Shown here: positions 1,922 through 37,052 of the stretch, piece by piece
How positions within the stretch are numbered: the stretch's first letter is position 1
How the letters are laid out: the number at the start of each line of letters is the position of its first letter
Assembly: GCA_905250025.1 (NCBI GenBank)
Contig: CAJNOJ010000068.1
Coordinates: 185,111-249,110, forward strand
Origin: Adineta ricciae
Lineage: Eukaryota > Rotifera > Eurotatoria > Adinetida > Adinetidae
Length of the DNA stretch: 64,000 bases
Direction: 5' to 3'
Position numbers and translations under genes: made by a program
Notes under the pieces: generated by a model
Database searches by the model: none
What the model saw: only the letters and a program-made list of their open reading frames with translations
Told to the model about the DNA's origin: nothing

Positions 1922-3923
1922 CTTTTGTACAAAAGATTTCTTAAATCATCGCCAATGGCTCTCCGGAGAGTTTGAAAAACTCATTGAGTCCCGTAATCAT
2001 TTTCAAGAGACATTCAACGACAAGAGAAAACTGGAAGATTTTCAAGATGCACTTCGTTCTGAAGTTGACCAATGGGAAAGTGGTACTTGTAGCAAAGTAC
2101 GATGCACAGCTGAGAAAGCCCGTTGTCAATATTCGAAAATGTTGAACAGCGATATTAAAAATATCGACGATAGTTTACGTAGTGTAACTGAACGACTTCG
2201 CGAAATGTATGAGGCGGATAATTTCGTTGAAGATGATCTCACGCAACTCGGTGCTATTATTTGTGAATTAGAGAACAATTTCCAACAACTCACTAACTCT
2301 TCTCGAATCGCGCTCAATAAGGAAAACAGTGAACAGCTAGATTGGAACTTACTCATCTATGTCGATAGCAAGAACACTCATGACCAGAAGGTAATTATGA
2401 AATAAATTAACGAGAGATGATAATACCTACAAAAAATATGTATACTGTAGGCTGATGTACCATGTCCATCGGAAGATATTAATTGTCAATGGAAAGGTCC
2501 ACTCGATGAGATAAACAATCATATCGTCGTGTGTGCATTCATCCCTCGTCGATCGAAGATTGAAAGGTTTCATGCTATAATTGAGCAACTAAGCGAGCGA
2601 ATCAAACAGCAAGGAGTAAGAATCGATGGAGACGAGTACCAAATTGAACAACTACAAGAAAATCTACAGCAGCGAAAAAATGAAGTTGATCTAGGCAAGA
2701 AGAACATAGAGCAATTGCAAGATGAAATCAGACAACAAGTCATCCAAATCAGTATTCGTAATGTAGAAATTCAGCAACTTAAAGATCAATTGAAACGAGA
2801 AGAAATTCGAGCGAATATTAGCGAAGGTGTTATTCAACAATTGAGAGATAGGTTAAAACAGGAAGAAGCTGAAGCCAAACGAAACAATGCTACGAATCGA
2901 CAACTGAAAGATCAACTGGAACAAGTAAAGGCGCAAGCATCGGCACATCACATCGACATTCAACAGCTAGTAAGAAATTTGGAACAGTGCAAAAGTGAAG
3001 TGAAGGCAGGCGAGAGGAAAGTAGATCAACTGGAAGGACAAACAAAACAGCAACAGATTCAGGTTGAAACAAAAGACAAAGATCTCGAACATATGAGAAA
3101 GCAACTAGAAGCGAATGTAGCTGAGATAAGTACGTGTAAAAGTGAAATTCAGAAACTGAAAGGACAACTAGAATACCAAAAGAACGAAGTAAGAGCTCGT
3201 GAGAAAAAGATTCAAAGTTTACAAGAGCAAATACAAAAACAAAGCACGAAAGCTAACGCGGTAGCTGAATCTCAACTGCAACAGCTTCGAGAGCAGTTGA
3301 AACAACGAGAAAATCGAATAACTTCCAATGACATGGAGTTACATCAATTGAAAGAACAGTTGGAACTTCAAAAGCATAAACTCCATACGGCTGAGCGAGA
3401 TATACAACAGTTAAGAGAACGAACAAAAAACCAGAAAAATCAGATTGATGAAAATGAAAGTGGAATTCGACTGATGAAAAATTCGTTGAAACAACGAGAG
3501 GCGAAAATCGCAACAGATGAAGTAATCATTGAGAAACAATCTGGCGAGTTGGATGAGAAATCTTATAAAATAAATAGTCTACTATTGAGATTAGAACAAC
3601 AGGGAAAAGAAAATCGCACAAAGGAAATCAAAATACAAGAGATCGAAGACCAAATGAATCAACAAGCAGCGAAACTTTCGACAAAAGAATCAACTATCTC
3701 AACACTGGAACAAGACAGAAGATGTCAAAGGTTTCAGATTAGCGAACTCGAATCGAAGCTTCGACTAAGCGTGGAAAGTAAGTATTGATTCATAGTACTT
3801 CTCTTGACAATTTGTTATTGTCATCGTATTTCTTAAATAGATACGATGCTTTGGCAAATTGGTTTTGCGATTCTGCTCGTAATACTTGGCATAACTCTTC
3901 TGTTCGTCATCAGTCGACGTTAG
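1922..3923 (+). CDS. TRIM/TRAF-like zinc-finger coiled-coil protein with C-terminal membrane anchor (5' partial)
   Basis: Exons are 1922-2390, 2451-3777 and 3841-3923; introns of 60 and 63 bp have GT-AG ends and preserve frame. The 5' end is lost at the N. Exon 1 is helical and resembles the coiled-coil that follows B-boxes in rotifer TRIM-like proteins. Exon 2 opens with a TRAF-type zinc finger (VPCPSEDINCQWKGPLDEIN followed by HIVVC), then about 400 residues of heptad-rich Gln/Glu/Lys coiled coil. Exon 3 adds a hydrophobic tail (MLWQIGFAILLVILGITLL, then FVISRR), making a tail anchor. That last exon would be missed without the 3778-3840 intron. The likely role, by family inference, is membrane-tethered scaffold or ubiquitin-type signalling; RING and B-box presumably lay upstream. 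The family call is reasonably sure, the function is not. Confidence 0.75.
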
Positions 3924-18033: not shown

Positions 18034-20760
18034 ATGAAGACATCGTTTGAATCGAAAGCATCGAGGTAAATTCATTTTTATGAATAATTTGAATATGATG
18101 GACGAGTTGTTTCTTTTGAAGAAGAAAATATCGGTTCCCCGTCGGTTTGATGTTAATAGGATTAGTAATCCTCGGTTTGATTATAGCTGTAATGTATATA
18201 GAAAAGCCAAAGAACTACCGTGACGCCGATCCATGTGAGTTGATAATTGTTTTCTTGCTGGAAGAATATATTGTACTTCTAGCGATAGCATCGCTTGTAA
18301 TTGTCACGTACCGAAGTAATCGAACAAACTCGAAATCAGCAAAAATTGCGGTTACAGATTCATTGGCGACTGACGTACGTTTATGTAGTTATTTTACGCA
18401 CTCATTGGTTTGCTTTTCTTTCTTACAGTTTACGAAAGCTTTCCATTTGCACGGAATTCGTATTCATTCTGCTGAATTTCGATATTTATCTAAAGAAGAT
18501 GACAAATTTCGATGTGATAATGGCGTCGCGATAATTGGAGATTATTTTCAAATAATATTTTCTCTGGAATATCCATTCGAATGTCAGACATTCAGCTGTA
18601 AAGATGGATTGATCACGAAACTTCAATATGAAATCGCTAATCAGTATCATACGATGGTTTTATCGGAAAAAGTCACCAACGGTAACATGCGAAATATTCT
18701 GTTGAACTTCTGTTCGTTTTACATCAATTCCACAGGTTGATAGATATTTTTCTATCGTACATTCGCAAAACTTTTTGCGTTGCCATTTAGGTGAACACAA
18801 AACGGGCATTACAAAGATAGTTGTCAATTCACTAGACAGTATGGGCGCTTATGAAAGACTTCGAGGTGTAGCATATGGTCAATTAGATCCAACGAGTGCG
18901 TGCAACAGTATCATTACCGATGTGCAGCTTGCCCCGCGTAATAAAGCCGGTTTGGTCAACTATTCCATGGATTTCTATATCCTTAAACCAGTCAAGTTAT
19001 CCGGTGGTAATCGTAAAATATTCTTTGAAGTTAACAATCGTGGCCGGAAATTGTTCGGTAAATTTGCTCAGATATCAGGTGGGAACAGTCCTTCGATGGT
19101 CGGTGATGTTGAGCGAAGCTTCCTTCTGAAACAAGGATATACGATTGTATGGAGTGGTTGGGATCCAAGTGTTCCATCGACTGGTGATTCGAACTTGCTG
19201 CGTATATATGTACCAATCGCAAGAAATTCAGATGGCACATCAGTAACAGGTCCTGTTTATGAATATATTGTGTTCGATAATCCGATAAGTACGTCATACA
19301 TGACGTCGTATCATACGAGTAGTACAGACACAAGCACTGCAACATTAACAGTTAAATATCATTTAACGGACACTCCGATAGCAATTCCGTCGATGAATTG
19401 GACATGGACGAGTAGTAATACGATAGCTCTCTTGCCTTTGAACACACCATTTCAACAAAGTGCAATTTATGAATTGACCTATACAGCCAAAGATCCATAC
19501 GTTGCTGGCATTGGATTCGCTGCTACTCGAGATTTTGTTTCGTTTCTACGCAGTAAAAGACCCGACAATCCATTAGCTGGTGGCATCAACCGAGTCATAT
19601 CTTGGGGTGCTTCTCAAGCAGCACGTTACATGAACGATTTTCTTTCGTTGGGTTTCAACCAAGATTGCCAGGGAAAACAAATCTTTGATGGTACGTTCAA
19701 CTGGATGGGAGCTGGAAATGGCGTTGGTCTTAATTATCGTTTCGCACAACCGCAGCGCACGGAACGCAATCGACAGGATCATTTATATCCCGAAGCAGTG
19801 TTCCCATTTACTTATACTATTCTTCGTGATCCACTTACTGGAAAAATTGATGGTCGTAACGCTCGATGTATGCGAACCCGTACGTGTCCCAAGGTTATGA
19901 ACGTGAATTCTGCTAACGATTACTGGGTGAAGGCGGCTTCATTGCTGCATTCTGACCTTGGAGGTAATGACCTACCCGACCCACCGAATGTACGTTTCTA
20001 TTTGATATCTGGCACTCAGCATGCTGATCCATCGCCGCCTGGCTCACAAGGAATCTGTCAGCAGTTTGGCAACACTCTAGATGCTACTCCTATTCTACGT
20101 GCTCTCTTTGTTACATTAGATCAATGGCTGGATGGTATAAGACCACCCCCAAGCTTAACTCCAAGTCGTTCGAATGGAACTGCAACGTTCTCTGATATTA
20201 CCCATCATTCGTCTCTTGGTATTGGTCGTGTCTCACAACGATCATTGCGGTGGCCAACGATCCCTAATGTTCTTTACACTGGCTTGATCACCATCCGAAA
20301 TTTGTTCAATTTCGGATCAAATTATAGCCAAGGTTTTCTTAGTATTAATCCAGTTCAGTCGACAGGCAAATACTATTCGTCTTTCGTATCGAAAGTTAAT
20401 GAAGATGGCAATGAAATTGCCGGCATACGGCTTCCGCCTATCTCCGTGCCCGTTGCTACTTATACGGGATGGAATCACCGTCGAAACGACTATGGAGGTG
20501 ATGATGGCTGTGAAGCGATTGGTGCAGTCATTCCTTTTGCTCCTGATTTAGCTACGCGAATGGCGAAAGGCGACACTCGCTTATCATTAGTAGAACGTTA
20601 TGAAGATCATGATGCATATGTAGCAGCTGTAACTGTAGCTACCACTACTCTTGTCAATCAACGCTTGCTACTGCCCACGGATGCTACCACATACATTAAC
20701 AATGCAAAATTATCAATTCAAATTATAAATCATCAAACTTATGGAAACTATACTTGGTAG
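18034..20760 (+). CDS. Membrane-anchored Abhydrolase_10-type alpha/beta hydrolase, 836 aa
   Basis: Five exons: 18034-18065, 18125-18234, 18283-18374, 18429-18735 and 18791-20760. Introns of 48-59 bp keep phase. Exons 1-2 give a cytosolic basic start (MKTSFESKASRKYRFPV) and a signal anchor (LMLIGLVILGLIIAVMY). About 140 residues of unknown sequence follow, then the Abhydrolase_10 domain (PF20091 family): ERLRGVAYGQLDPTS, FFEVNNRGRKL, GYTIVWSGWDPSVP, the nucleophile region VISWGASQAARYMNDFLSLG, SGTQHADPS, LRALFVTLDQWL and ERYEDHDAYVAAV. The family is known mainly from bacteria, so a horizontally acquired enzyme domesticated with introns and an anchor is inferred. Substrate unknown. AATAAA is at 20807. 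Two of the introns are multiples of three and could be read through. Confidence 0.85.
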
Positions 20761-21135
20761 TTAAATATCTATGCTAATCAACGATCCATAAACAGTTTTT
20801 TTCAATAATAAAAACTTTTCTTCGTCAAATCAAAAATTGTAGATGTATGTGACCAAAAAGAATCTCCATCATCTATTCAAACTTTTATAGATTTAACTGA
20901 TATGTTTCATCATCAGAGATAACCAAAGAAGAGCTTCTTATCTTCACCGATACAGAAAATAAATACAAAAAAAGTTTTTGCTCGTTTGCAAATATCTAGC
21001 GTGGCTAACTGAATTTCTTGCATCTTCATCATATTATCTTTTAAGGAAACACCTCAAATCTCTCAACAATACGATGCTTGAGGGTGAACCTAAGCCAATG
21101 AACATTTATATTGCAGATGGTTATACAAAACGCAT
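20761..21135. other. Intergenic between convergent genes
   Basis: Contains the hydrolase polyadenylation signal; nothing else is recognisable. Confidence 0.4.
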
Positions 21136-21591
21136 TTAGTTGGTCGATTTTATTGTTGAAACAATTGAATCAATATAATCTTGAGGAAAGTCATGTTCAC
21201 ATGCGCCATCAATAATCGTTCGAAGATATTCATCCGACGGACGGTAGTTTTCGAACGGAGATGTTTCATCAATAAATGTGATAGCTCGAATCGTTGAATG
21301 ATCTGATTGCAATTCAATATCGACTTCAATCATTCGATATCCAGGCTCTGTTTTTAAAAGGAGATCTCGGTGTTCATTATTGATACCATACACTAAACCA
21401 TAGATATAAGAGCCTTTCTTTGGTATAATATTTGCTCTTCCTTCACCGTTTGGTTGTTGATGATTGAATCGTAATTCATAATCAAGCAGTCGACCAACAT
21501 CAACGCTCAATGGATGATCACCACCTATTCTTTCTTTCAATAAACTTTCTTTCAAATTGCTAGCATAACCAAAGTAATTCGATCGGTCCAT
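21136..21591 (-). CDS. Gamma-glutamylcyclotransferase-like protein, 151 aa
   Basis: A GGCT/AIG2-like fold, single exon. Motifs in order are YFGYASNLKESLLKER (substrate-loop YGSNL equivalent, Gly then Ala-Ser), LLDYELRFN, ANIIPKKGSYIYGLVYGI, a mid-domain Glu in LLKTEPGYRMIEVDI (the catalytic Glu position) and YRPSDEYLRTIIDGACEHDFP. The enzyme class releases 5-oxoproline from gamma-glutamyl compounds in glutathione turnover. The ATG at 21591 follows a non-ATG extension. The start codon lies exactly at the edge of a segment shared with the 3' flank of the LamG gene at 33 kb, so its promoter context is duplication-derived. Confidence 0.82.
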   Translation of the reverse strand: MDRSNYFGYASNLKESLLKERIGGDHPLSVDVGRLLDYELRFNHQQPNGEGRANIIPKKGSYIYGLVYGINNEHRDLLLKTEPGYRMIEVDIELQSDHSTIRAITFIDETSPFENYRPSDEYLRTIIDGACEHDFPQDYIDSIVSTIKSTN

Positions 21592-21606
21592 TTCGATTAC
21601 AAACAC

Positions 21607-21840
21607 AACGAACAGTGAGTTTTATCTTCGCGTCCTATCAAAAGAAAGAGAAAAAGTCAACAGACGGTATATTGTGGCAAGGAAAAAAGTGACATAGTTT
21701 ATTGACTCAAACAGAACGACAAACATGATGTTCATGAATTTGTTTAGGAGTGAGAGCATGATCATAAACAGTCGAAAACATAGACTGAGACCTGATGACC
21801 GTTGATCAAATTTTTTATTTAGATATTGTTTCAAAGGAAA
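21607..21840 (-). pseudogene. Truncated copy of the LamG-like gene 3' end
   Basis: On the minus strand this matches the last part of the gene at 33103-33837: FDQRSSGLSL corresponds to LDQRPGLSP, and the final VYDHALTP-region nucleotides, stop and 3' flank are shared, with about 75 bp of the WPCAIHDGG..VGQLGG segment deleted. No start or N-terminal domain is present. Confidence 0.6.
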
Positions 21841-23090
21841 ACAGGAATCGATTAGGAGTTAACATTTTTCTTACTATTAGCTTCACTGTTATCTAAAATA
21901 CAAAAGTAATCATTCAGATATCGCCTTCAAGATACTCACACTGTTGAGTGTTTGGCGGCTTGGTTCTCTTATAAATTAAAACATCAAACCATTTTATAGA
22001 GATCAATGATGCTTCTCGAAGAATTCATTGGTCTTTTCCTACAGAAACTGTTCTTCTGAATTTTAAACATATTATTTGTTCATGAGAAAAGAAAAACGTG
22101 CATTCCCGCTATCCTTTTCTTTTAGGTCCATCTGAATGTTTTAATTAAAGATCTTGCTCAGTTTCCACTCTCTGTACTCCACTTATCTTATTTCCAGCGA
22201 AGATGTACCGTAAAAGTAAACACAATCGGCAAGAATCTCTTATCGTTTGTTTTTATATTTAATATAGTCACTTAAGTCAGGAGAATGGCTAAGATGAAGC
22301 ACATGCGAAATTCATTCGCACGAGCGAATCCTCGTCGGATGATATACGTAGCAGAAATGGTAAAGTAGGGAATATGAACGCGCTTTTCCTTATTTTGTCT
22401 TGACAAGGAAACTCGAGAAAGGTGTGGCAGGATATCCAAGAAATTTAATAAAATACCCAAATTTTCCAGTTTATTTTTAGTAAAGTCTGTGTCGACTCTT
22501 CGATAGAAAAAGTCTTAATCAATCGGTACAAGTGCTGAAGCAACATTTAAATGATTTAATCTAACCGTACAAGTAAAATTCACAGCATTTCATGCATTAG
22601 TAAAACATTTCATTTATCAGAAACTAAATCAATATTCCTACATATCACATATGATGAAGTTTAGATTTGATTAATTTCTTGATTTTCTTCTGAAATCTTG
22701 CACTGAAACTAATGATTTCTTAAAATAAAAGTTTGTACCTATGCTTTGCTTGATCATTCAAGATATACGTAGCTCTAACGAACTGAATAAGAATTTGATT
22801 TGTCGTTCATTTCACACCTGAAGGAAATTCAATAACGAGACTCACGCTTCTACTTTCGAAATATTGAATCTTGATGCAGAATTTACTCTTTTATCGAAAC
22901 AATATCGACAGATGAACAAAACTAGCATTCTATCACTTCTCTTCTTTTTGCCTTATTATATCTCGTCATATTTTATTTAAAAAAGTGCTTGTGCAACTGG
23001 CTTATTTTCTATCACATAGTATATCAGTTTTCATAAAACATCGAGAGAAGGCGTCATTTGTCTACGTGTAGGTGATACATATACTTGCAG
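21841..23090. other. Gene desert
   Basis: No supported gene. A short phrase near 22315-22345 (GCGAATCCTCGTCGGATGATA) recurs in altered form near 23916, hinting at dispersed repeat remnants. Confidence 0.35.
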
Positions 23091-23103
23091 GGCGAAAACT
23101 TAA

Positions 23104-23166
23104 CTCCTGTCCTGTCCCTCCTGTACGCTATGCTAATTTGCTATTCTGCAGGATAAGACAGGACAG
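23104..23166. repeat. CCTGT-rich hairpin
   Basis: CTGTCCTGTCC at 23107-23117 pairs with AGACAGGACAG at 23156-23166 (10 of 11). The motif relates to the CAGGG array inside the large intron at 25061. Confidence 0.45.
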
Positions 23167-23281
23167 AAAAATCCGACCAGCGTAATCGCCTCCGGTGCGT
23201 ATCCATCCTAGGTATCATGCTTTGCTCTTCAGCATACGTAAGAAAAAGAACGCTGATTAGTTCGTTCTATTAATATACATA

Positions 23282-24228
23282 GATTGTTTTTGCTCTGGTT
23301 TTATACTGTTAATTATGAAAAGCAAATTTCAAAAGGTAAAATAATACGGAGAATGAAAAGCAAATTTTTTACTCGTTACGCTGCAATTACCTATCGTCGA
23401 ACGATTATAATACTTTTATGTCATACTGATCTATAGTAAATAAATAAATACCCGTATGTTGTTTTGTTATTGGAAAAAATAAAGAAATAATTCAGGTTTT
23501 CTTCACCGATTGAGACTTACATGAGCATAAGTGTTAAATTCTAAAGTACAAAATGTCGATTTTCGACTAGAAATCTACAAATACTGTTTATCATTTGCAG
23601 CGACTTTGCGTAGATTCCGATATAGCGCCGACAGTTTTTGACTTTATATAATTGGATAGTGCCTTGATTGCTGTTTTCAAACTGTGCATTCTTTATTTGA
23701 TTTATTTTCCATCGTTAGACAGAAAGAATTGACGAATATCTGAAACGAATGACGCATTACTTTTTTCAACGAATATTCTACTGAAAGTGAAACGAACAAG
23801 ATCTTCTTATTACGTTTATTCGGTTTTCTTTTTTTTTCATTTAATGTTGTATTCAGTTTAATGAATGAAGCTACGCAGTTAGTCAAGGTGAAATATACAA
23901 AAATACACTCATGCGAAGCGAACCTTCGTAGGATGATAAGCACACTCATTGTAAATATTATGTTTTCAGGCCAATGTACGCTCTTCGTTTCATTATGAAG
24001 AAAAAGGATATTGATTGACTAACTGTATTATTGTGATTGCTTTTGCTCTGTTTTTACACGCCAAATCAGAAAAATATAGATGCTTCGCGAAAGATAACGT
24101 AATAAGGGAGAACAAAAAGCAAACTTATTATTCCTCACGCTGTAATTATCCGTCGTCGGACGATTACAGCACTTTTATGTCTTACTGATTTATGATAAAT
24201 AAATATGCGTACTTTATTTTGTTATTGC
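23282..24228. repeat. Diverged direct repeat pair, about 193 bp each
   Basis: 23282-23473 and 24035-24228 align end to end at roughly three quarters identity: both run from GATTG(T/C)TTTTGCTCTG through AAAAGCAAA..TTATT/TTACTC, a CGTCG.ACGATTA block and CACTTTTATGTC, to TTTTGTTATTG. Homology fades after about 80 more bases. Probably two copies of a non-autonomous element. Confidence 0.5.
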
Positions 24229-24529
24229 ACTAATATATAAGAAATTTTTCACTCGTTGAGATTAGCTGTTTGTACTTCTCTTGTTACTTGTCGTTTTACA
24301 TCCTCTGAATGCGATGTTTCAGTGTAGGGATGTATCAATTTTGATTCCGTTCGATTCGAATTCCAAAATCGAAGTAGGAATTGGTACATCCGCAATCAGA
24401 TGTATAAATGAGTTTTCATTATTTTGAGTAAAACCTGAGCGTGCGTAAGATAAAATGTCGCAAAAACTAGCAGTTCACTAAGGATGTTGCTTATTCGTCG
24501 TGATTATTCTACTGGCTTTAGATTACACT

Positions 24530-27500
24530 ATGAACAATACTATTGATCATAGTAGTAGACATCACCGGCTATGGACAATTTGGTCAGTGTTCTTCACCAT
24601 ATTCTGTGGCTTGTGCTGTTTGGGGACTGTAGCAGCAGTAGTTGTTTTGGCTCTTATTCCGATCTATCTATCACAAAAAGGAAACGACATTGTAACTGAT
24701 ACAAGTATTTATGATACTTATCTTGCTCATATCAAACTAGCAACCCTCTTTCGCTAGGCTCGTCAGCATTCGCATTAACTTATGGCACATCAACGATGGG
24801 CATTTCATCTTTCGAAGTGCGTGACTTAAATGCACTAAGTACAGAGGTAAATACCCTCTAATGACTCCAAGATCATTGCTGTGTAAACCTTTCTTTTCAG
24901 TTGAATAAAGCGTTTGGTACCAACGAGGTTCAAGTAGTGGTTGCGAAGTATGACTCTTCATCAAATGGAAAAAAGAAAAAACGACAGTAAGTTTAACAGA
25001 TCAACTCTCACTCCTTTCGAATCAAAAGCGTCGACAGGACACTTTTTTTCCTATGCTTCGCAGGGCAGGGCAGGGCAGGGCAGGGCAGAGCAGGACAAAT
25101 GCATTATATAACTATGTTTACATAGTTAACGTTTTGTGTAACATAACCGGTACAATTCAATGCATGTACAGCCCACAAACAGAATAACATTCAATGAATA
25201 TACGTAGAAATACATTTAGCGGAAGAATATTACGGGATTTATTAAATTTTCCTCACAAAAGGCCTAATTAAATTTAGTAGTATTATTTATTTTTCGGTTG
25301 ATTCTCCTTTATATTACGGTTTGATTGACGTTTTCTGACAGTATTCCCTGCATAACTCAACCACGGTTATACCTTCATTAACAATTTTAAACCAAAGTAT
25401 CATACGTTCCTCGTTCTAGGAACGGAGAACGTTGACACCCATACTTTATGTACCAAAATAGATTATCTAGGATTAGAATTAAAGTCAGTGTAATACTTTC
25501 AGTTCAATTATGCAATAATCAATTTTATGTAGCAGAGTTGTTCATCCAACTATCCATGGGATCAAGATTTGATGAGAAAGACGGTTGTTTGCAGATGAAT
25601 ATCAACGTTCTGATTTTCTCACTAAATAGTTTCGAGTGAAATGAGGAATAAGCTTCTTCTTTGAGCGGCGATCTATTTTTAAAGTACTGAAAAAGCACAA
25701 AGTTGAATTAATAAGACGTATGAACCAGTCAGCATGTTCCTATCACAACGAGTTCTTATTTTGTAGTTTTGTTTACTCTTTGATCTCAGCAGAATTTTAT
25801 TAATTTCTTTTTCTAAAAATTTCTGTTATTTCATCTGAAATGTTCCTGGTTATAAAATATTACTTAGATCAACTATCATTTGATAAAGCTAGGAAAACGT
25901 TTGCTAATCATATAAAATAGTGTTCGACGTTATTCACAAATACAATCACGTTTTTTGAGTAGTTTTGCATACTTTTTAGGCAAAACAGCGATTTTTAGGA
26001 GTTTATGATAGGCATGAATAACTAGCACGACCACCCTGCCCTGTCATGTGGGCAACTCTATTTCGAACTATTGCATTCTAGAGCTCAACAATGCGAACAA
26101 AGTACGAACGTAATTGGAGATTTTGTCATGATTCAGTTTTCGCTGGACTTTTCGAAAACATGCAAGACATCAAAATGCCGTCAAAACCTTATCAGTAAAG
26201 TTCAGTTGCAAATCCGAAACTCTGCAGCGATTACTATTCCAATGACATTGGCGAACGGCACTACCATCAATGCATCGCTACGTTTTTGTTCATTAACGCA
26301 AATCACTTCTCAAGGTCTGTATATACACAGCACAGGCGTCCAAATAAGTAGAGCGTGTTGTGAAATTTAGTCCTGCCTTTTTTCCAAAAGAGGCCAGCGC
26401 ATAGTAGGAGAGAGCACTGACCTGTCGACACCTCAGATTGGCAGCTACATAACATCTATAATACTGCCTCACAACTAAGCAGCGTAGATGCCTTCTAACG
26501 AGGTCAGATTGTTTAAGGGCACACAAAGAACTATTTTCACCATATTAATATTCACAAACTATCTGCCGATTACAGGAAATTCAAAACGCATCCCGACCGG
26601 ATGAAAGACCTACTTAGTGCAAATATAGTACACTATTCGGATTACTTAAACGCACGCAGTTCTTTCCCCAATTACTTTTCTTTCTGTTTAAGAAAAATGT
26701 CTCGTTCTTTAGTTTCCTTCTGCTCCATCCTGACAGTTTGCAACTCGACTGGCGGCGGAGGCGTCTGTGAAGCGAATGGTGGCGATGTCACAAATTACAA
26801 ATGTACAGGCTGTAATTATGGTGGTAATGTAATGAACGGGCCTTGCCCAAGTAAGTGATACGCATCACTCCAAAAAACAGTGGATTCTCGTGTCTCTTCT
26901 CTAGGCACACCTTGCGCATCTGTCAATTGTAATTCAGCTGCTGGTGGCGGTGCTTGTCAGGCGGTTGGTGGTGGAAGTGCAAACTACAAATGCACAGGCT
27001 GTAGCTATGGTGCAGATGTAACGAACGGATTTTGCCCAGGTAGGTGATACGCACCACTCCATAAAACAGTGGATTCACATCTCTCCTCTCTAGGTACGCC
27101 ATGTGCATCTGTCCATTGTAATTCAGCTGCTGGTGGCGGTGCTTGCCAGGCAGTTGGCGGTGGAAGTGCAAACTACAATTGCACAGGTTGTAGCTATGGT
27201 GGAGATGTAACGAACGGATTTTGCCCAGGTAGGTGATACGCACCACTCCATAAAACAGTGGATTCACATTCCTCCTCTCTAGGTACACCATGTGCATCTG
27301 TCCATTGTAATTCAGCTGCTGGTGGTGGTGCTTGCCAGGCAGTTGGCGGTGGAAGTGCAAACTACAAATGCACAGGTTGTAGCTATGGTGCAGATGTGAC
27401 GAACGGGCCTTGTCCAGGTAAGTGATACGCACCACTCCAAAAAACAGTGGATTCTCGTGTCTCCTCTCTAGGTACACCATGTGCATCTGTCAACTGTAAC

Positions 27501-30317
27501 TCAGCTTCTGGCGGCGGCGTTTGCCAGGCAGTTGGCGGTGGAAGTGCAAACTACAAATGCACAGGCTGTAGCTATGGTGGAGATGTAACGAACGGATTTT
27601 GCCCAGGTAGGTGATACGCGCCACTCCATAAAACAGTGGATTCACGTCTCTCCTCTCTCTAGGCACACCGTGCGCATCTGTCAATTGTAATTCGACCGGA
27701 GGTGAAGGCTCTTGCGTTGCGGTTGGTGGCGGAGCGGCAGATTTCAAATGTATGAATTGTAGTGATGGGACGACAGCGTCCAATCAATCATGTCCAGGTA
27801 AAGAGAAAGATTCTAGTCGGCACGGAGAGAAAAGATGAAAGTGTTGAGTTAAAAATGTAATTTGTCGAAAAATTGTCTAGTAGCGTGTCCCATAGCTGTA
27901 TACTGTGAGCGTCACCATTTTCAGCGCGATGCATATGTGCTTTATTTTTCATTGCTATTCAAAACTCTTTCAAGATTCTCAAATCCACGTTACATTACAC
28001 TTAATACTCGGCTTGAGTTTTGCCCATATCTTAAGATAGTTTGTAATGCATTCATCGTCATATGAGAACCTCGAGCGATAGAAAATGCCGAAACATGTAA
28101 AATAGAAAAGTGACATTATTGTTGGAATACTTGCTTAAACATATGAACGATCCGGAAGCGGACATCATTCGTAGATAAGTGTTAATGATCCTCGCATGAG
28201 TTTAAATAGTGCTTCGGAAATTCTTTTTCATCTCTTCTGATTTCGTTTTAGCGCCGATCCCGCCAGTTACTCTCTTAGTGGCACATACTGATATAGTGGA
28301 TGTACAAAGTAATTATACCTGTCTGGTGACAATATTCAATTTAACAGCTACGGATAATTCCACGGTTAATAATGTGTGCGCACTTAATCAGTTGAATATC
28401 GAAGCCAATTCGAATGCAAGCGTCACTTCGACATCATCGTCCTGCCCAAAAGTAACCGATATCCACGCCGCAGGAACAGCAAATGTTAATAATGTATGCG
28501 CAATAAATTCTATGGATATAAACGCAAACGATGGATCGGTCGTATCTATTAGTAAAACAGCAACATGTCCTCAGGTGATTACTGTCACAGCGAATAACGC
28601 GTCTGAAATTGATAACATTTGTGCTATTAACCAAATGAATGTAGTAGTACATCAAGCGGATGATATCACATTTAACTCAGCATCGTCCTGTGCGAAAAAC
28701 AGTAGTTTTGACATGGCATTCATCGGTCCCGTCTCTAATCTTTGCGCAAGTGAACAAATGACTATTAAATCGATTGACACTGATAGTATTTCCATTGATT
28801 CAGCAACTGCATGTCCGAAACAGGTTACTCTTTCGTCAGAAAGAACGACGAGGGTTACAAATCTTTGTTCAAGCCAACAATTGAGTATTACATCAAAAAA
28901 TATGGGACCCATTTCTCTCAATTCATCAAATGTATGTCCCGAACAGGCTATTGTTAGTGTCCAAAATATGCAGGGTATTAAGGATCTCTGCGCTAGTCAA
29001 CAAATGAATATAACAGCAAGTAACACGGACCCAATTGCTATTAATTCGGTGACTGCGTGTCCACAACTAGCTGCTGTTACTACCCAAAATATGGCTGGAA
29101 TTACGAATCTCTGTGCAAGTCAACAAATGACTATAACAGCAAAGAACATGGGCTCAATTTCTGTTAATTCCGTGAATGAATGTCCAGCGCAGGCTGTTGT
29201 AAATGCCCAAAATATGGCTGGAATCACGAATCTCTGTGCAAGTCAACAAATGACTATAACACCAAAGAACATGGGCTCAATTTCTGTTAATTCCGTGAAT
29301 GAATGTCCAGTGCAGGCTGTTGTAAATGCCCAAAATATGGCTGGAATCACGAATCTCTGTGCAAGTCAACAAATCAATATTACAGCAAGTAGCATGGGCT
29401 CAATTTCTATCAATTCAGTGACTGCATGTCCACAACTAGCTGTTGTTACTGTCCACAATATGCAAGGTATTACGAATCTCTGTGCAAGTCAACAAATGAC
29501 TATAACAGCAAGTTCCATGAATCCAATTTCTATCGATTCATCAACTGTATGCCCACAACAGGCTGTTGTCAACGTCCAAAGTATGTCTGGAATCACGAAT
29601 ATCTGTGCAAGTCAACAAATGAGTATTAATGCAAATTACACGAACCCAATATCTATTAATTCAGCAAATGTATGTCCACAACAGGCTACTGTCAATGTCA
29701 ACTCTATGCAGGGTATTACGAATCTCTGTGCAAGTCAACAAATGACTGTTACAGCCAGCTATACAGATGAAATTTCTATTAATTCAGCAAATGTATGCCC
29801 ACAACAGGTTGTGATCAATGCTCAATATGCAGGTGGATTTACCAATCTTTGTGCGAGTCAAAGCATCAATATGACATCACAGGGAACTAGGTTGCATTCT
29901 ATGAATACGTCTTGGCCATGTCCAACATCAGCTTTTCTTAGCATTACACTAAACGGTACAATGACAGGCATTTGCGCAAATACCTCACTGATCATTAGTG
30001 GTTCTGACTCGATTGTTAATGCTAGTACAGCTCAATGTGCAGCATCTGTCACTATCACGAGTACTAGTGCATTGACAGTCAACAATCTTTGCTCGACCGG
30101 TCAAATAGAAATCAATGTTGTAAATTCTACGGTGACTACGGTGAAATCAACATGTCCAACAGTTGCCAATGTTGTAGCTGATATTTCGTCGGTAGTGTAT
30201 GTTTGTGCAACGACGGCCATCAACGCACTTGTTTCGAATGGTGCGACATTATATTATCAAGGGCCACTGAATCATACACAGACGAGCAATGGTGGTCAAA
30301 TATTGGCATGGCCATGA
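24530..30317 (+). CDS. Giant type II membrane protein: Cys/Gly exon-module array plus beta-solenoid, 1,145 aa
   Basis: Eleven exons: 24530-24704, 24758-24846, 24901-24986, 26082-26314, 26737-26850, 26905-27039, 27094-27228, 27283-27417, 27472-27606, 27663-27797, 28252-30317. The sum is 3,438 nt, in frame. The N-terminus is cytosolic (MNNTIDHSSRHHRLWT), followed by one membrane anchor (residues 20-50). Then come a juxtamembrane domain (YGTSTMGISSFEVRDL, basic GKKKKRQ) and a Cys-paired domain (CEQ..CKTSKCRQ). Six Cys/Gly modules of the CxGC type follow, five of them exactly 45 residues on their own 135-nt phase-1 exons. The last exon encodes about 690 residues of 41-residue repeats (LCASQQMTIT..ISVNS..CP) ending YYQGPLNHTQT, resembling an adhesin-like beta-helix (DUF2807 style). 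The extracellular region is rich in N-glycosylation sites. Likely a surface adhesin or jelly component (inference). Introns 3, 4 and 10 are unusually long (1,095, 422 and 454 bp). Confidence 0.78.
25061..25095. repeat. CAGGG pentamer array in intron 3
   Basis: Five CAGGG units, then CAGAG and CAGGA. An opposite-sense remnant (CCACCCTGCCCTGTC) sits at 26030-26045, near the other end of the same intron, as if bounding an inserted element of about 980 bp with no coding capacity. Confidence 0.6.
26905..27797 (+). repeat. Tandem exon array, 189-bp period
   Basis: Five 135-nt exons start at 26905, 27094, 27283, 27472 and 27663. The introns between them (54, 54, 54 and 56 bp) are also nearly identical, each carrying GTGATACGC.CCACTCCA and AAACAGTGGATTC. 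Phase 1-1 exons can be multiplied without breaking frame. The fifth is the most diverged. Confidence 0.85.
28360..30260 (+). repeat. 123-bp coding repeat (41 residues), about 16 copies
   Basis: The phrase CTCTGTGCAAGTCAACAAATGA recurs with exact 123-bp spacing in the central copies (ACGAAT at 29103, 29226, 29349). Terminal copies are more diverged. Each unit has two cysteines, one in LCAS and one in the CP motif. Confidence 0.85.
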
Positions 30318-30859
30318 AGATAGTTCAAAAATCATTATTTACAGACATATGTAACTTTTACCAATATTCATTTATAAGTAGTTTCGACATTAGTCGAATC
30401 TTTGATGCTCCATATTGCTTTTCATTAGAACTAGACAGCGAATATGTCAAGTTGATTGTAATGCATTCACTTCCAAAATATCACTAGACCAGCACTATAG
30501 TGTTCGACATACTCGAATGAATACTTAGTCCTGTTCGAACAATTATTTCTAAGTCGTTGACAGGTCTATTCATCAGTTTTGTACTGAAATAGGTACACTT
30601 GAAATGCATTACAATTATCTTAACATGTTCAGTATTTTTTATCTGCTATTATCTATTCACTTTGTTCTTTTTGCTTTTTTTCTGATTTAATATATATGCG
30701 TGCGCTTTTCATTACTAATCTTTATGTGCCATTTTAGATTATAACATACTAGGCATCTCAGAGATACTTCCCGACAACCATCTTGAGGGCAAGATTCATG
30801 ACTGAAGAATATACGAAACAGAACTTTTAATAATTGAAGATCATTTGGAGAAGTCAATC
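30318..30859. other. Intergenic, 540 bp
   Basis: AT-rich; no gene or clear core promoter. Confidence 0.4.
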
Positions 30860-32738
30860 ATGAGTTGCAGGACACTCGTCAGAATCGTGTTTATTTTCAT
30901 ATTGTTGCAACATTCGTTAGAAGCGACACGAATATCTAATTGTTACGTGAACATTACTTCCCAAGAAATTAACCCAACTCTTGCTGATAATATCTACCAT
31001 GTTCAAAGATCAATAACAATTGTCGATTTTCTTCAAACGTTATCCATATTGTTGATTATCATTCAAACTTCGGATGATATAGAACAAATCATATACACTA
31101 TCTTGCGAGTTGGTCTACCTTCGAAGTCACATCCTACGTTAAGTCGTGTGATGCCACCGTCGTCAACGGATGATGAATATCCCATGGTTGCTGTACAATT
31201 ACCAATGATGAACGAAAAGGAGTTTTGTATTTCAATGATAACGTGTGCTTGTAATTTAGAGTGGCCAAAAGATCGTTTGATTATTCAGGTACTGGACGAT
31301 TCGACGGATGAGACAGTTATGAAAATGATTGATATGTGTGTAGAAGAATGGTCAAGTCGAGGGTTTCAAATCGATGTTGTTCGACGTGACGATCGATACG
31401 GTTTCAAAGCAGGAAACTTGAAAAATGGCCTCGAGAAGATTCAACAATGTGAATACATTGCATTATTCGATGTTGATTTTCTACCCGAAAAGAACTTCCT
31501 AGTAAAAACAGTGCCTCTTCTTTTGCAAGATCCGAAAGTGGCCTATGCCCAAGCACGATGGATATTCACCAATGGAAAAGAGTCACTATTAACACAAATG
31601 CAAGAGATTTCTCTCAATCATCATCATAAATGCGAACAAGAAGTCAAATATCGCATGCATTCTTTTTTTCAATTCAATGGATCTGCTTGTGTTTGGCGAA
31701 CGAAAGCCATTCACCAATGTGGAGGTTGNCACCAATGGAAAAGAGTCACTATTAACACAAATGCAAGAGATTTCTCTCAATCATCATCATAAATGCGAAC
31801 AAGAAGTCAAATATCGCATGCATTCTTTTTTTCAATTCAATGGATCTGCTTGTGTTTGGCGAACGAAAGCCATTCACCAATGTGGAGGTTGGCATACAGA
31901 CACTCTGGTCGAAGATTTAGATATTTCTGTTCGAGCTTATATGAATGGCTGGTATGCTGCTTATACACTTGATGTTAAATGTTTGAACGAGTTGCCACCT
32001 ACTTTCACGGCATACCTCTCTCAACAATACCGATGGTTCAGTGGACCTGCACAGGTTTTTCGAAAGTTATTCACAGCTGTTCGTCGAACGTCTCACATGA
32101 ACGTTTATCGAAAGCTGCATTGTCTGTGGATGATTTGTCGGCCATGTCTTTACATTGTTCGTTTCGCTATATTTCTTCTGAATATAGCTATCAATGCTTG
32201 TTTACGGAAAACAGTCAATGTGAACATTTTTATCACATTTTTTCCATTAATTTTAGCCTCCAATATTTTATTCTACACATTTGAACAAATCCATTTGGTC
32301 AAAGTCTATTCCCTCTTTTGTAATGCTATGCTATTCCATCATGCAAGTTCAGCGATAGCAGGTTTTTTCAATTTCAGTTCTGCTAGAAAATGGATTGTTA
32401 CTCCAAAGTTTGGTAATCCGACGCGTATGAATGATCAAGAACGGAAAATTGCGGCTTGTCCAACTACCGACACCATGTGTCCATATCTCAATCGGTGTAA
32501 TCAGTATTGTCCAAGTTTGCATGTGGCTTCTGATAGTTTGCAGTCAATTTGTTTCGCAATTCAACACCAAATCAACGGCTTGCAAATTCATAGAGGATAC
32601 TTAGCTATGACTTTGTATATTCTTGTATTTTCATACATCGCATTCTTGAATGAACAGTATCTTATAAGTTTAGATTTGACGCTAAATGCATTGATGTATA
32701 CTGTGTTTACTTTGGGCTATTTGGGTAGATCTCAATAA
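30860..32738 (+). CDS. CslA-type GT2 glycosyltransferase (mannan-synthase-like), interrupted by an assembly duplication
   Basis: The frame from the ATG at 30860 (a TTG precedes it) is shifted at the N at 31729 and resumes in another frame because 162 bp are repeated there. Ignoring the repeat plus N (163 nt) the gene is one open frame of 571 codons. It has a signal or anchor (residues 1-22), a second hydrophobic segment, and GT2 motifs: VAVQLPMMNE, QVLDDSTD, the FDVDF DxD, the VEDLD acid and QQYRW (QxxRW). Several C-terminal membrane helices form the pore. The pattern matches plant CslA/CslC rather than animal chitin or hyaluronan synthases, so beta-mannan or glucan synthesis at a membrane and horizontal origin are inferred. 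It is single-exon in this stretch. Confidence 0.85.
31567..31891. repeat. Exact 162-bp duplication flanking an N (assembly artefact)
   Basis: 31567-31728 equals 31730-31891 base for base, with the single N at 31729 between them. Removing one copy and the N restores the reading frame of the GT2 gene. This is the signature of an uncollapsed contig overlap. Confidence 0.92.
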
Positions 32739-33102
32739 AAGTTATGTCCTATTGGACTTCACGTCATCTTTTCGCAAAGATCTATTGGTTTGTTACACAT
32801 TTCAACATAAACGAAAAGGAATGAATGGTGCAGTGTACTTCTGTTGTTTCTTTTGTTGACACGTAGTTACAAGAGAGTGATTCATGAGAGATGAATCAAT
32901 GATAAGCTATACTGTTTTATACGATAAAAATGTGGAGAATGACGAAAATTCAGATTTGTTTAATCTTTAGCACGAAACAATTCAATCAATCCATTTCGAT
33001 TACAAACATAATGAACAATAAGTTGTTTTTACAGTCAAGATGAGTTTAATCTCTGCGTTCTTATCAAGCGAGAGAGAAAAAGCAAACAGACAGTATATTG
33101 AC
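32739..33102. other. Intergenic, with a possible GGCT start remnant
   Basis: At 32960-32997 on the minus strand a short piece reads ATGGATTGATTGAATT, similar to the start of the GGCT gene at 21591 (ATGGACCGATCGAATT). It sits downstream of LamG in the same relative position as the complete GGCT does at 21 kb. It is too short to be certain. Confidence 0.35.
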
Positions 33103-33837
33103 TCAAACAGAACGAGAAACATAAAGTTCATGAAGTTCTGCAGGAGTGAGAGCATGATCATAAACAGCCAATCCTCCAAGTTGTCCAACGAACCAGTTGC
33201 CCATGGTGCCGCTACGAAATACTGAACCAACGGTAAAATCAGCACCTTGATCTCCACCATCGTGAATGGCACACGGCCAAAAATACGGACTGAGACCTGG
33301 TCGTTGATCGAGCTTTCCATTTAAATAAGCTTTAGCCCAAATGCCATCGAATGTGACTGCAACTTGTTGCCATTCGTTCCATGGTACAGCCGTTTGTCCT
33401 ATCGTAGCTTCCATACAATATCTATAATCAGGACTAGGAGCGCCCGTCGAAGACAGGTGGCCACACACTTGATTGGCACTACTCCAAATACCAAGATTGA
33501 GAAAGAGACAATATTGTCTTGCACTATTTGTTTCATTCCACATTCCAGCAATCGTTTCGCATTCTTTGTTACTCTTTTGCTTGCGTTTTATCCAAGCAAC
33601 GATAGATAACTGTGTACCAAGACCATGAAGATTAAGAGCAGGACAAGATGTACGTGGAATTTTAAACCATTGTTCCTCTTTTAATTCAGCTGAATACGGA
33701 CCAATAATTCCGTCTTCAACACGTGCAATTGGACCATTCATTTCTTCAAGTGCATAAGCATATTGACCTTCCGATTCTCGATGAGATCCCGGTGGTTCTT
33801 GAAACAGCCAGCGACAGAGAGAAGTAACACTTGCCAT
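33103..33837 (-). CDS. LamG/concanavalin A-like jellyroll protein, 244 aa
   Basis: A single LamG-like (Laminin_G_3 type) beta-sandwich: CRWLFQEPPGSH, IARVEDGIIGPYSAEL, a lectin-core LSIVAWIKRKQ, AGMWNETNSARQYCLFL, WNEWQQVAVTFDGIWAKAYLNG, the conserved LDQRPGLSPYFWP, and VGQLGGLAVYDHALTPAELHEL. There is no signal peptide or membrane segment, so it is presumably cytosolic unless a first exon was missed. The family is widespread in bacteria; single-exon structure fits acquisition (inference). The ATG at 33837 follows a non-ATG extension. A 3' fragment of this gene is duplicated at 21607-21840. Confidence 0.8.
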   Translation of the reverse strand: MASVTSLCRWLFQEPPGSHRESEGQYAYALEEMNGPIARVEDGIIGPYSAELKEEQWFKIPRTSCPALNLHGLGTQLSIVAWIKRKQKSNKECETIAGMWNETNSARQYCLFLNLGIWSSANQVCGHLSSTGAPSPDYRYCMEATIGQTAVPWNEWQQVAVTFDGIWAKAYLNGKLDQRPGLSPYFWPCAIHDGGDQGADFTVGSVFRSGTMGNWFVGQLGGLAVYDHALTPAELHELYVSRSV

Positions 33838-34217
33838 TACTGTGTATGCTAGACACACGCGCAAATGGATACAAGTAGAAGCTTCTTATCATAAGATGAT
33901 GATAATAATATTCGCCTTGTGTATGCTATCAACCGAATGTTGCAAAGTTCTCATATCTTTAGAAGAATTTTCACTAGTATGGTATTTGAAATTCAACTTA
34001 ATATCGGCACTGATTAACAAGCTTTCAAATTTGTCTTTATTTTTGTATTATGAATCGAAGAAGGATAGCACGTATTCATTTTCTTTTCTTGTTGCAAAAC
34101 AAGTGTTTTTATCAACTGCGTTATTAGATAAATCTTTGCGCATATGACGAAGAGATGACGACATACTTTCTACTACTACGTCTTTCTCACAATTCAGTTT
34201 TGAATCGGTGATTAGCG
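33838..34217. other. Intergenic between divergent genes
   Basis: No TATA or conserved motif stands out in these 380 bp. Confidence 0.4.
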
Positions 34218-37052
34218 ATGACACACGGTGATAACTCGATTGCACGTATGTTCCGTTCGAATACAACAATTCAACAGTCGACTTGTTCGATAATCTCACA
34301 ATTTTGTGACCTTCAACAACGATTTTTAAATGATATCAAATCAGTTTGTGATCAACTACAGACTCTTAAAGATCTCATTGACGTACTTCTAAACACAAAC
34401 AAAGTAACAACGCTCAAGCAATACAAAATAGAGAATAGAATAGAAGTGATTGTTTGTGGAGCGAAATCATCGGGAAAGGCATCTGTTATCCATGAACTTC
34501 TCCGATGTGGTCAATTTTTACCGGCTGACATCAATAGTATTTCACAACGGAATGTCAAATTTTCCTATGCTGCTTCTAATAAAGCTTGTTTAATCTTACA
34601 CGAAACGAATGGACAAACAGTCTCATCTACGAATCGTATTGATCTATCATCATTTTTCAAAACGCGCATTGCTTCAGAAGAATTAAAGGCAACGCTTGCA
34701 CCTTATTTACTCCAAGGAGAACATACCATTGAATCAGACGACTGGAAAGCATCTCTCGTTGAACTTTGTTTGCCATCAAATTTCCTACAATCAAATATTG
34801 ATGTATACGAAATATCAACGATTACCGCAATAAAGAATATTCATCTAACAAATCCATATTTTCTATTCGTGTACGAAGGTGCTACCATCTCCGATGAGAC
34901 AAAAACATATTACGAACAGCTGCGACGAACTCTTGGTAATACCGTTCATGATAATATATTCTTTCTCAACACTGAAATCGACCTCGACGATGATCGAGAA
35001 CGGAATCGTCGATATGAAAATTTAAGAGATGTTTTGACCATGAATAACCGATTGCCTCGCACATGTGATGAATGCAATTGCTTTGATGTTTTTAGTAGTG
35101 AACATCCACAACAGAACGTTATCGATCGTATCCTTCGTTTTATTTTCGATAGCGCTTTACGGAACACTCAAGAAGTCAGCAAGATTATGTTGGATACCAT
35201 TGATACATTTTTCGATTTCGTTCTAATGACCAATCAACGTTCGGCCAGAAAATGGGATCGTCTACGAGAAGAAGCATTACATTGGGCGACGGAATTCTTC
35301 CAACAATATCGCTTACAAGCCGATGCCATCGGTGACGAAGCACAAAAACAGTTTTCTGTTCGATTACGCCAGCAACGCATACAACTAGCGAAGAAAATAG
35401 TTGCGTATAGACGAGAACGAAGTGAACATTTGGATTTGCAAGTTTCAAGCATTAGTTTGATAAATGCTATCCAACCAATTCGAATATCCGATGACAAAAA
35501 TTTTTCGCATTCAATTGTTCAGGAAGAAATTGTTCGACCGGTTTTAAGTAAAATTTTCAATCAAATCAATGATCGAGTCAGTACGCACATCGACCAGAAC
35601 TTAGTCGAGAAACGACCCATTAAGCACAACGAATTAATTCTTGCAGCTTACCGTGCATTTCTTGATCGCATCAAAATTATCGATACGACAAAACGTCGAG
35701 ACTATTTCAAAAAGCAATCGTTCAAAGAAATTCTCGTCGGAATCAGTGGACTAATGAATACGCTTGGAACACTGTTCTCGATTAAAGAATTAGATATTGA
35801 TTCTTTGGGTGAACACATTATTGAGGAAGACGTCGAACGAAGTTTTGTCGACATTGGTGAAAGCATTAAACGGAATATTCGAGATGAAGTTGAATCGAAT
35901 GAAAGATTTGTTAAGCAGAAAATTCATGCTTACCATCAAGCTGCTTTAGCCACTGCAAATGTCCGACAACAAGCATATCGATTAGCTCGATTTTTTGCAC
36001 CGCAATTTGCTCGCCTCGAATGTCTTCTGCTCGCTAACTTAGATTTAGCTAAACATTATGGGAGGGCACCAAGGATCGATTTGGGCGACACGTTGGGTCG
36101 CGGTGGCTTCTTTTCTGTACACCCGGCCTCGTGGGATACAGAACGAGATCTTGTAGCTAAAGTTCTACTGAATTCAAGCAAATCACCCGATTTTGCTTAC
36201 ATGGAGGCCCACTTTCATCGGACGATAACTCGATTGAATATTGAACATATAGTTCCATTACATTCGCTGCATTATGACAATCAAAACGATCGATTGTATA
36301 TTCTTCTTCGGCGCTACCCTATGAGTTTACATACTTATCTGACAAATCACATGGCGGATTTAACCATGAGCGATGCTATGCGTATTCTACTTCATATAAG
36401 CCGTGCTATAGCACATCTACATGCGCAAAATCTTATTCATCGCGATATTAAAACTCAAAACATTTTGCTCGATGATCACAGAAACGTCTTTCTAGCTGAC
36501 TTTGGTACGTGTCAACATGGTACAGAAAATTATACGATCATTGGCTCGCAACCTTTACCCCCCGAATTTCATCGTGACCGTAGATCAATAGATTTTTCAT
36601 ATACAGGCACCGCTGTCGATGTGTTTTCACTTGGAGTATTGATGTATGCTCTTGCACCGAAAGCGGTTTATCAGAGTTCACATGATATCATCACAGAAGC
36701 TAACATTCGTGAGCTCACTCATGTGCCTGAGCGTTACAGAAGTCTGATAGTTGCCTGCCTTCATCCGAATGCCAATACACGACCAACCGCAGCTCAAGCT
36801 GTTGACCAATTAACGATGATTGCTGAACAAGTTGCCAAAGGAAAGGAATGCTTGATGTGTTTTGAATATCCGATTTTTAGTCGATGTTTACCATGTGGTC
36901 ATAAGACAGTGTGTGGAAAATGTTTTGTAATCTTACAACAGCGCGCAACGACGAGAAATCAACCAAAATGTATCATTTGTCAACAAGCGATTGCTAATAC
37001 GCGTGAAGATACTGATAATGCTACATTCGTAGAAATTCTCTCTTCATTTTGA
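34218..37052 (+). CDS. DSTYK-like protein: GTPase-like domain, kinase domain and RING finger, 944 aa
   Basis: A single exon. Residues about 75-340 resemble a dynamin-like GTPase with a P-loop CGAKSSGKAS (81-90) whose last Ser/Thr is replaced by Ala. A helical stalk spans about 340-610. A protein kinase domain spans about 618-872, with Gly loop GRGGFFSV, the Lys of VAKVLL, HRDIKTQN, ADFGTC and a DVFSLGVLMYAL F-helix, so catalytically complete. The last 67 residues form a RING (CLMC, CLPCGH, CGKC, CIIC). The GTPase-like/kinase order matches the dual Ser/Thr and Tyr kinase DSTYK; the appended RING suggests an E3-coupled version. AATAAA is at 37063. The domain calls are secure, pathway unknown. 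Confidence 0.85.
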   Translation: MTHGDNSIARMFRSNTTIQQSTCSIISQFCDLQQRFLNDIKSVCDQLQTLKDLIDVLLNTNKVTTLKQYKIENRIEVIVCGAKSSGKASVIHELLRCGQFLPADINSISQRNVKFSYAASNKACLILHETNGQTVSSTNRIDLSSFFKTRIASEELKATLAPYLLQGEHTIESDDWKASLVELCLPSNFLQSNIDVYEISTITAIKNIHLTNPYFLFVYEGATISDETKTYYEQLRRTLGNTVHDNIFFLNTEIDLDDDRERNRRYENLRDVLTMNNRLPRTCDECNCFDVFSSEHPQQNVIDRILRFIFDSALRNTQEVSKIMLDTIDTFFDFVLMTNQRSARKWDRLREEALHWATEFFQQYRLQADAIGDEAQKQFSVRLRQQRIQLAKKIVAYRRERSEHLDLQVSSISLINAIQPIRISDDKNFSHSIVQEEIVRPVLSKIFNQINDRVSTHIDQNLVEKRPIKHNELILAAYRAFLDRIKIIDTTKRRDYFKKQSFKEILVGISGLMNTLGTLFSIKELDIDSLGEHIIEEDVERSFVDIGESIKRNIRDEVESNERFVKQKIHAYHQAALATANVRQQAYRLARFFAPQFARLECLLLANLDLAKHYGRAPRIDLGDTLGRGGFFSVHPASWDTERDLVAKVLLNSSKSPDFAYMEAHFHRTITRLNIEHIVPLHSLHYDNQNDRLYILLRRYPMSLHTYLTNHMADLTMSDAMRILLHISRAIAHLHAQNLIHRDIKTQNILLDDHRNVFLADFGTCQHGTENYTIIGSQPLPPEFHRDRRSIDFSYTGTAVDVFSLGVLMYALAPKAVYQSSHDIITEANIRELTHVPERYRSLIVACLHPNANTRPTAAQAVDQLTMIAEQVAKGKECLMCFEYPIFSRCLPCGHKTVCGKCFVILQQRATTRNQPKCIICQQAIANTREDTDNATFVEILSSF

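Follow-up and report, generated by a model that had tools for sequence, protein, structure and literature searches.

Gene architecture

What kind of protein is encoded between positions 24530 and 30317 of the window, a 64,000-nucleotide stretch of the genome of the rotifer Adineta ricciae, and how might it be displayed at the cell surface? The window has a GC content of about 37% and lies on contig C68 (437,712 bp) of the genome assembly that was searched (130.5 Mb). A search of this genome for short tandem arrays found none of TTAGGG or TTAGGC but some of TGTGGG, for which the backward control, a rotation of the same repeat, carries no information; PMC7943196 gives TGTGGG as the repeat of A. 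vaga. The first-pass annotation had read the locus as a giant surface protein of no named family, composed of an N-terminal membrane anchor, 45-residue Cys modules and a beta-solenoid. Splicing and translation bear out its gene model: all 11 exons have the expected intron borders, AG before and GT after, and join in phase into a single frame of 1,145 residues with no internal stop, an architecture that is kept in a tandem copy.

All features of the gene lie on the forward strand. Exon 1 (24530-24704) encodes a short N-terminal tail followed by a hydrophobic signal-anchor segment at residues ~17-46, and the same kind of exon is found in the spliced relatives described below. The anchor that had been claimed is supported by this single hydrophobic segment, and because the segment is N-terminal, we infer a type II topology, which would leave a cytoplasmic tail of ~16 residues. 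Exons 2 and 3 (24758-24846 and 24901-24986) encode the first half of a membrane-proximal head domain, as judged from translation and head alignment, and exon 3 ends in the codons of a KKKKR motif (24970-24984) resembling a proprotein-convertase site. The second half of the head is contributed by exon 4 (26082-26314). The six following exons encode Cys modules, identified by translation and Cys pattern: a short first module of 38 residues in exon 5 (26737-26850), and five full modules of 45 residues, each in one 135-nt exon with phase-1 introns on both sides, in exons 6-10 (26905-27039, 27094-27228, 27283-27417, 27472-27606, and 27663-27797). Exon 11 (28252-30317) encodes a repeat domain with 32 Cys, predicted to form a beta-solenoid and referred to here as the rod, together with the stop codon. 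Both arrays were also recovered by Tandem Repeats Finder, with a period of 189 for the Cys modules (exon plus intron) and a period of 123 for the rod (41 codons). Positions 25081-25326, within intron 3, belong to a dispersed repeat that is matched at 73-76% on six further contigs; the C68 copy matches separately.

Pfam and NCBIfam scans of the 1,145-residue protein gave no family at its cut-off, in agreement with the claim that no named family applies, and a weak PHROGs match was found (E 0.0039). Among the papers listed in literature searches, none has a title or displayed abstract on such a protein family, which is no proof of absence.

The tandem copy begins 64,757 bp upstream, also on C68 and in the same orientation (C68:144000-153500). 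Its 13 exons are of the same types, with GT/AG sites, and read through as a single frame of 1,235 residues; eight of them, one short and seven full, are Cys exons, versus six in the gene. The two are 94-99% identical in exons 1-4 and 91.3% identical in exon 11. For exon 11, a count of 105.5 nonsynonymous and 74.5 synonymous differences gives a dN/dS ratio of 0.39. The head, with 19 nonsynonymous and 10 synonymous differences, has a ratio of 0.54, an imprecise value as it is based on only 29 differences. Since the introns are 84-93% alike and the first 500 bases past the stop codon 96% alike, the bias of conservation toward the exons is only modest, and the signal of selection between gene and copy appears moderate. 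The one-gene status is supported by this copy and by a locus on contig C896, in which the head and Cys modules occur in the same order on the same strand.

The membrane-proximal anchor

The anchor is a cassette of four exons: the transmembrane exon, two exons ending in the polybasic furin-like site, and an exon with four Cys. Searching the genome with exon 4 (78 residues) gave 29 matches at E<=0.001, 27 of them in addition to the gene and the copy. Eighteen of these 27 were spliced with a small alignment script, whose exon choices are uncertain in the more distant loci and in some cases clearly wrong (for example, exon 2 of L047). Among the 18, the second exon measures 89 nt in 10 and the third 86 nt in 8. 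Of the 18 relatives, 16 have a polybasic motif just upstream of exon 4, as do the gene and the copy, with varying exact letters. It is absent in L055 and L056, which are the head at 18.5 kb of the window and its counterpart near the copy; the head can thus exist without the site.

The segment that separates the membrane from the polybasic site is itself conserved in sequence across the spliced relatives. An alignment of nine heads contains eight invariant columns (Y25, C79, F94, C102, C107, N133, C144, and S145 in the numbering of row 1). No Cys is found between the membrane and the site, and four follow it in exon 4, so that no disulfide would span a cut at this position. Averaged residue propensities, a crude measure in which a second helix is indistinct, suggest that a strand, a helix and a strand precede the site and that strands follow it. 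None of the nine heads matched a Pfam-A family at its cut-off; the best sub-cutoff match (Curto_V3, E 0.0013, in one of the nine) and the best PDB match (E 0.43) were both taken as chance. As judged from these relatives, all found in searches of the animal's own genome, the anchor is a reused, probably cleavable cassette that is found with different tails.

By analogy, the layout of the head resembles that of a SEA domain cut in the β2-β3 loop. According to passages of PMC6954182, the SEA domains of Mucin-1, Notch-2, and GPR126 are cut in this loop, the cut consensus of GPR126 is (R/K)-X-K-R, and cleaved SEA domains remain intact until force is applied. The head would share with them a cut site between the halves of a small membrane-near domain and, like the furin-cut cases, has a polybasic consensus. 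For the ferredoxin-like alpha/beta fold of SEA domains, the head offers the averaged propensities given above, with their indistinct second helix. It differs in having four conserved Cys in its second half and in lacking a SEA profile match: SEA (PF01390) matched none of the nine heads in the Pfam-A search, and when the genome was searched with a SEA profile, the two matches obtained were below the cut-off and lay outside the head loci. SEA identity was rejected for lack of profile support.

Candidate tails behind the head

Tails were assessed at 20 loci within 1.5 kb of the head, using simple motifs in three frames, and the splicing of these tails to the heads is putative. Cys modules follow the head at three loci (the gene, the copy, and C896), DCGG-type modules at nine (L048-L054, L059, and L062), and Ser/Thr runs at seven (L052, L053, L057, L058, L061, L063, and L064), while none of the three motifs was detected at L055, L056, or L060. 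On C896, the Cys modules are followed by a 193-residue ORF without Pfam match; a solenoid was searched for after the modules and not found. L052 (contig C20), which has both a Ser/Thr run and DCGG modules, additionally contains a Hint-like (hedgehog/intein) stretch at positions 2546-3225, its Hint match being below the cut-off (E 1.2e-5, 25.4 versus 29.7 bits). The picture of a unique giant protein needs revision in one part: the locus is probably one gene, and it belongs to a modular set, in which the anchor recurs with other tails and the solenoid occurs elsewhere without a detected head.

The Cys modules

The 45-residue modules of the earlier description were found as five full units and the short one in exon 5. 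A full unit has six Cys, a GG before Cys3, and Y or F before Cys4, and occupies one phase-1 exon. EGF-like modules share these features, and EGF exons are typically phase-1. The modules differ from EGF in the spacing between Cys4 and Cys5, which is C-x-x-C in all six modules of the window and thus leaves two residues where EGF has one.

No EGF match was obtained in the Pfam scan of the protein. Aligned by hhalign with EGF modules of the same genome, the Cys modules scored 19.1; among 100 column shuffles that preserve the Cys (mean 11.1, maximum 22.6), three scored higher. An EGF search of the genome placed none on C68 among the matches listed (150 of 1,446 candidates scored). The AlphaFold2 model for the Cys modules is weak, with two strands and a pLDDT of 74.1, and three of the five models fall below 50; it gave no PDB match at E<=0.001, and no EGF occurs among the 50 PDB matches listed. 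Given the shuffles that exceeded its score and the weak model that matched nothing, EGF identity was rejected, and the modules are best described as EGF-like in pattern, namely in spacing and exon phase.

The predicted C-terminal rod

The rod has a 41-residue periodicity, with one Cys per coil in coils that alternate between 18 and 23 residues. All 31 intervals between its 32 Cys fall in the ranges 17-19 or 21-23, versus 12 in the best of 10,000 shuffles. The first-pass count of about sixteen repeats is right, because 31 intervals correspond to ~15.5 units of 41 residues.

Four repeats were modeled by AlphaFold2 with an alignment made of three other stretches of exon 11. The resulting model (pLDDT 86.4, pTM 0.83) is all-beta: it has 14 strands, lacks any helix that reaches four residues, and shows four strands per 41 residues in its inner repeats. 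The Foldseek search against the PDB gave no match at E<=0.001, the best being the CAP C-terminal domain (E 0.15); the 50 matches listed, all with low TM-score, also contain pectate lyases, RP2, tapirins, and ice-binding proteins. Against BFVD, the best match was a right-handed beta-helix protein, which is not significant (E 0.10), and no beta-helix profile matched the rod in the Pfam and NCBIfam scans. The proposed solenoid has a confident all-beta model with four strands per repeat in its favor, but it corresponds to no solved fold at this threshold. The rod likely belongs to the beta-solenoid class, as predicted from the model, and is assigned to no known fold. It would share regular beta coils with the parallel beta-helix and beta-solenoid proteins, which it matches only weakly in Foldseek, and differs from them in its alternating 18/23-residue coils, its single Cys per coil, and its conserved cap. 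This C-terminal cap (78 residues, 30081-30314) is 62% identical to its counterpart on contig C138 and 41% identical to that on C303.

Relatives of the rod and coupled Cys changes

Beyond the two copies on C68, the solenoid has matches on C138, C303, and C171, in open frames of 491, 1,497, and 252 residues, respectively. No head was found near any of the three in the ~1.5 to 5 kb checked upstream. Ahead of the C171 solenoid lie a hydrophobic leader and a PAN_1 match that narrowly misses its cut-off (20.9 versus 21.4 bits); the corresponding stretch of C303 has a hydrophobic leader without Pfam match. With such leaders and no detected head nearby, these two proteins may be secreted. Near the C138 solenoid (L020), a glycosyltransferase-2-like frame was noticed by eye, suggesting a related neighbourhood.

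The Cys rhythm is kept in 21 of 21 intervals on C138, 62 of 69 on C303, and 9 of 11 on C171. The Cys count is even in four arrays (32 in the window, 32 in the copy, 22 in C138, and 70 in C303); the open frame of C171 has 12 Cys, the first of which may fall outside the exon. In C303, three ladder positions (one A-type and two P-type) are without Cys, and after each lost Cys the next P-type coil gains one, located two residues before the regular Cys. Such doublets occur nowhere else in the array, and the chance of three doublets hitting the right coils among ~33 P-type coils is about 1 in 5,500 by a rough, post hoc count. Two of the three cases fit a scheme in which a P-type Cys pairs with the A-type Cys that follows it by 18 residues, and the third does not. 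The coupled loss and gain supports disulfide pairing along the stack.

Pattern scans of prokaryotic genome contigs and viral contigs, in which distant relatives could be missed, and tblastn against phage and plasmid records revealed no relative of the solenoid. A bacterial or viral donor was rejected on the basis of these searches.

Proposed mode of action

Our favored reading, which remains tentative, is that the gene product is a convertase-cut adhesion or recognition rod displayed in type II orientation. Exon 1 would thread the precursor into the secretory pathway. A proprotein convertase would then cut the reusable head (exons 2-4) at KKKKR, which would lie in a loop joining the two halves of a single small domain. 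As SEA-type domains do, these halves may hold together non-covalently until force separates them or the ectodomain is shed. The Cys modules may form a disulfide-bonded, EGF-like stalk. Exon 11 would fold into a beta-solenoid of ~31 coils with a length of roughly 15 nm (coils × 4.8 Å), in which the stacked Cys would pair into a disulfide ladder and the conserved cap would close the end. The rod could thereby offer a contact surface toward matrix, mucus, or cells.

The site may instead serve delivery only, with cleavage freeing the ectodomain as a disulfide-held building block of a coat, such as the cuticle, a jelly, or an egg or resting-state envelope. This is a possible but rather doubtful alternative. 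It is consistent with the conserved polybasic site, with a cytoplasmic tail that has no room for a signalling domain, with the 74 Cys and 25 N-glycosylation sequons, and with the solenoid relatives on C303 and C171, whose leaders lack a nearby head. However, conservation of the part between membrane and site would be needless in a mere disposable linker.

An uncut membrane-bound adhesin or recognition receptor, in which the polybasic stretch has another use, is unlikely. The two head genes without a site (L055 and L056) are in line with it, but the site is kept at an equivalent place in 16 of 18 relatives despite its varying letters, and the short cytoplasmic tail also speaks against it. Very unlikely, too, is a division into two genes, of which one would encode a small head protein (exons 1-4) and the other a secreted protein of Cys modules and solenoid: solenoids do occur elsewhere without a detected head, but the exons join in phase and their order is kept in the copy and on C896. 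That the rod is an ice-binding beta-solenoid with T-x-T rows is hardly credible. In its favor, 4 of the 15 A-type coils in the window protein have T-x-T at the strand, and the weak Foldseek matches include ice-binding proteins. However, the motif is present in 3 of 15 such coils of the copy and absent from all 10 of C138 and all 31 of C303, and this identity was rejected for lack of conservation over the four proteins.

Around this proposed rod, a wider and speculative scheme can be drawn. The four-exon convertase-cut type II anchor might be the common part of a display kit with many tips (Cys-ladder solenoid, DCGG, mucin-like, Hint-like, and esterase-like hydrolase), and the solenoid might be a new disulfide-ladder fold, encoded in one long open frame, joined to various N-termini and possibly of foreign origin.

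Comparison with other surface proteins

Teneurins provide a working analogy for the gene product. Passages of PMC6297184 describe them as type II proteins with a predicted furin site before EGF-like repeats and a large beta-rich tip, and state that the cut ectodomain of teneurin-2 stays attached non-covalently. The gene product would share the type II orientation, the predicted furin site between the membrane and EGF-like repeats, and the large beta-rich tip. It differs from teneurins in its very short cytoplasmic tail and in its head, modules, and tip, the last being built of a 41-residue repeat; no beta-propeller or YD-repeat match was found in the Pfam scan of the protein.

Mate recognition proteins (MMR) of the rotifer Brachionus are surface proteins of tandem repeats as well. 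Passages of PMC2746195 give them a signal peptide and a motif of 87-92 codons predicted to be helical, with no introns seen in MMR-B. The gene product resembles them in neither repeat nor anchor, and identity with these proteins was rejected because the repeat is different.

If our reading is true, the locus would provide two unnamed building blocks for animal surface biology: a family of cleavable type II anchors, and a Cys-ladder rod with one stacked Cys per coil, in which lost Cys are matched by gained ones. The interchangeable displayed tips would then be a natural place to seek recognition or coat proteins of rotifers.

The gene neighbourhood

The gene is located between two neighbours that recur together with it. 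A related head exon (18510-18719, forward strand), in which the polybasic site was not found, is followed by an Abhydrolase_10 ORF of 684 residues (E 7.7e-44), the gene as a whole spanning 18510-20760; the rod gene and a glycosyltransferase gene come next. All three recur at a distance of ~65 kb with order and strand unchanged (window ~18500-32800 and C68:138600-153500), and on this sequence comparison the recurrence is a large tandem duplication. Within the glycosyltransferase-2 gene, a 163-bp unit is perfectly duplicated in tandem (positions 31567-31891 of the window), and unknown bases lie at the junction or close to it. This duplication may be an assembly error, since only one unit aligns with the C68 copy. 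Further downstream, an antisense ORF (33106-33885, reverse strand) has a Laminin_G_3 match (E 7.1e-12), and a 946-residue ORF (34212-37052) combines a kinase domain (E 2.1e-31) with a RING finger (E 1.6e-7) and has a sub-cutoff Dynamin_N match at its start.
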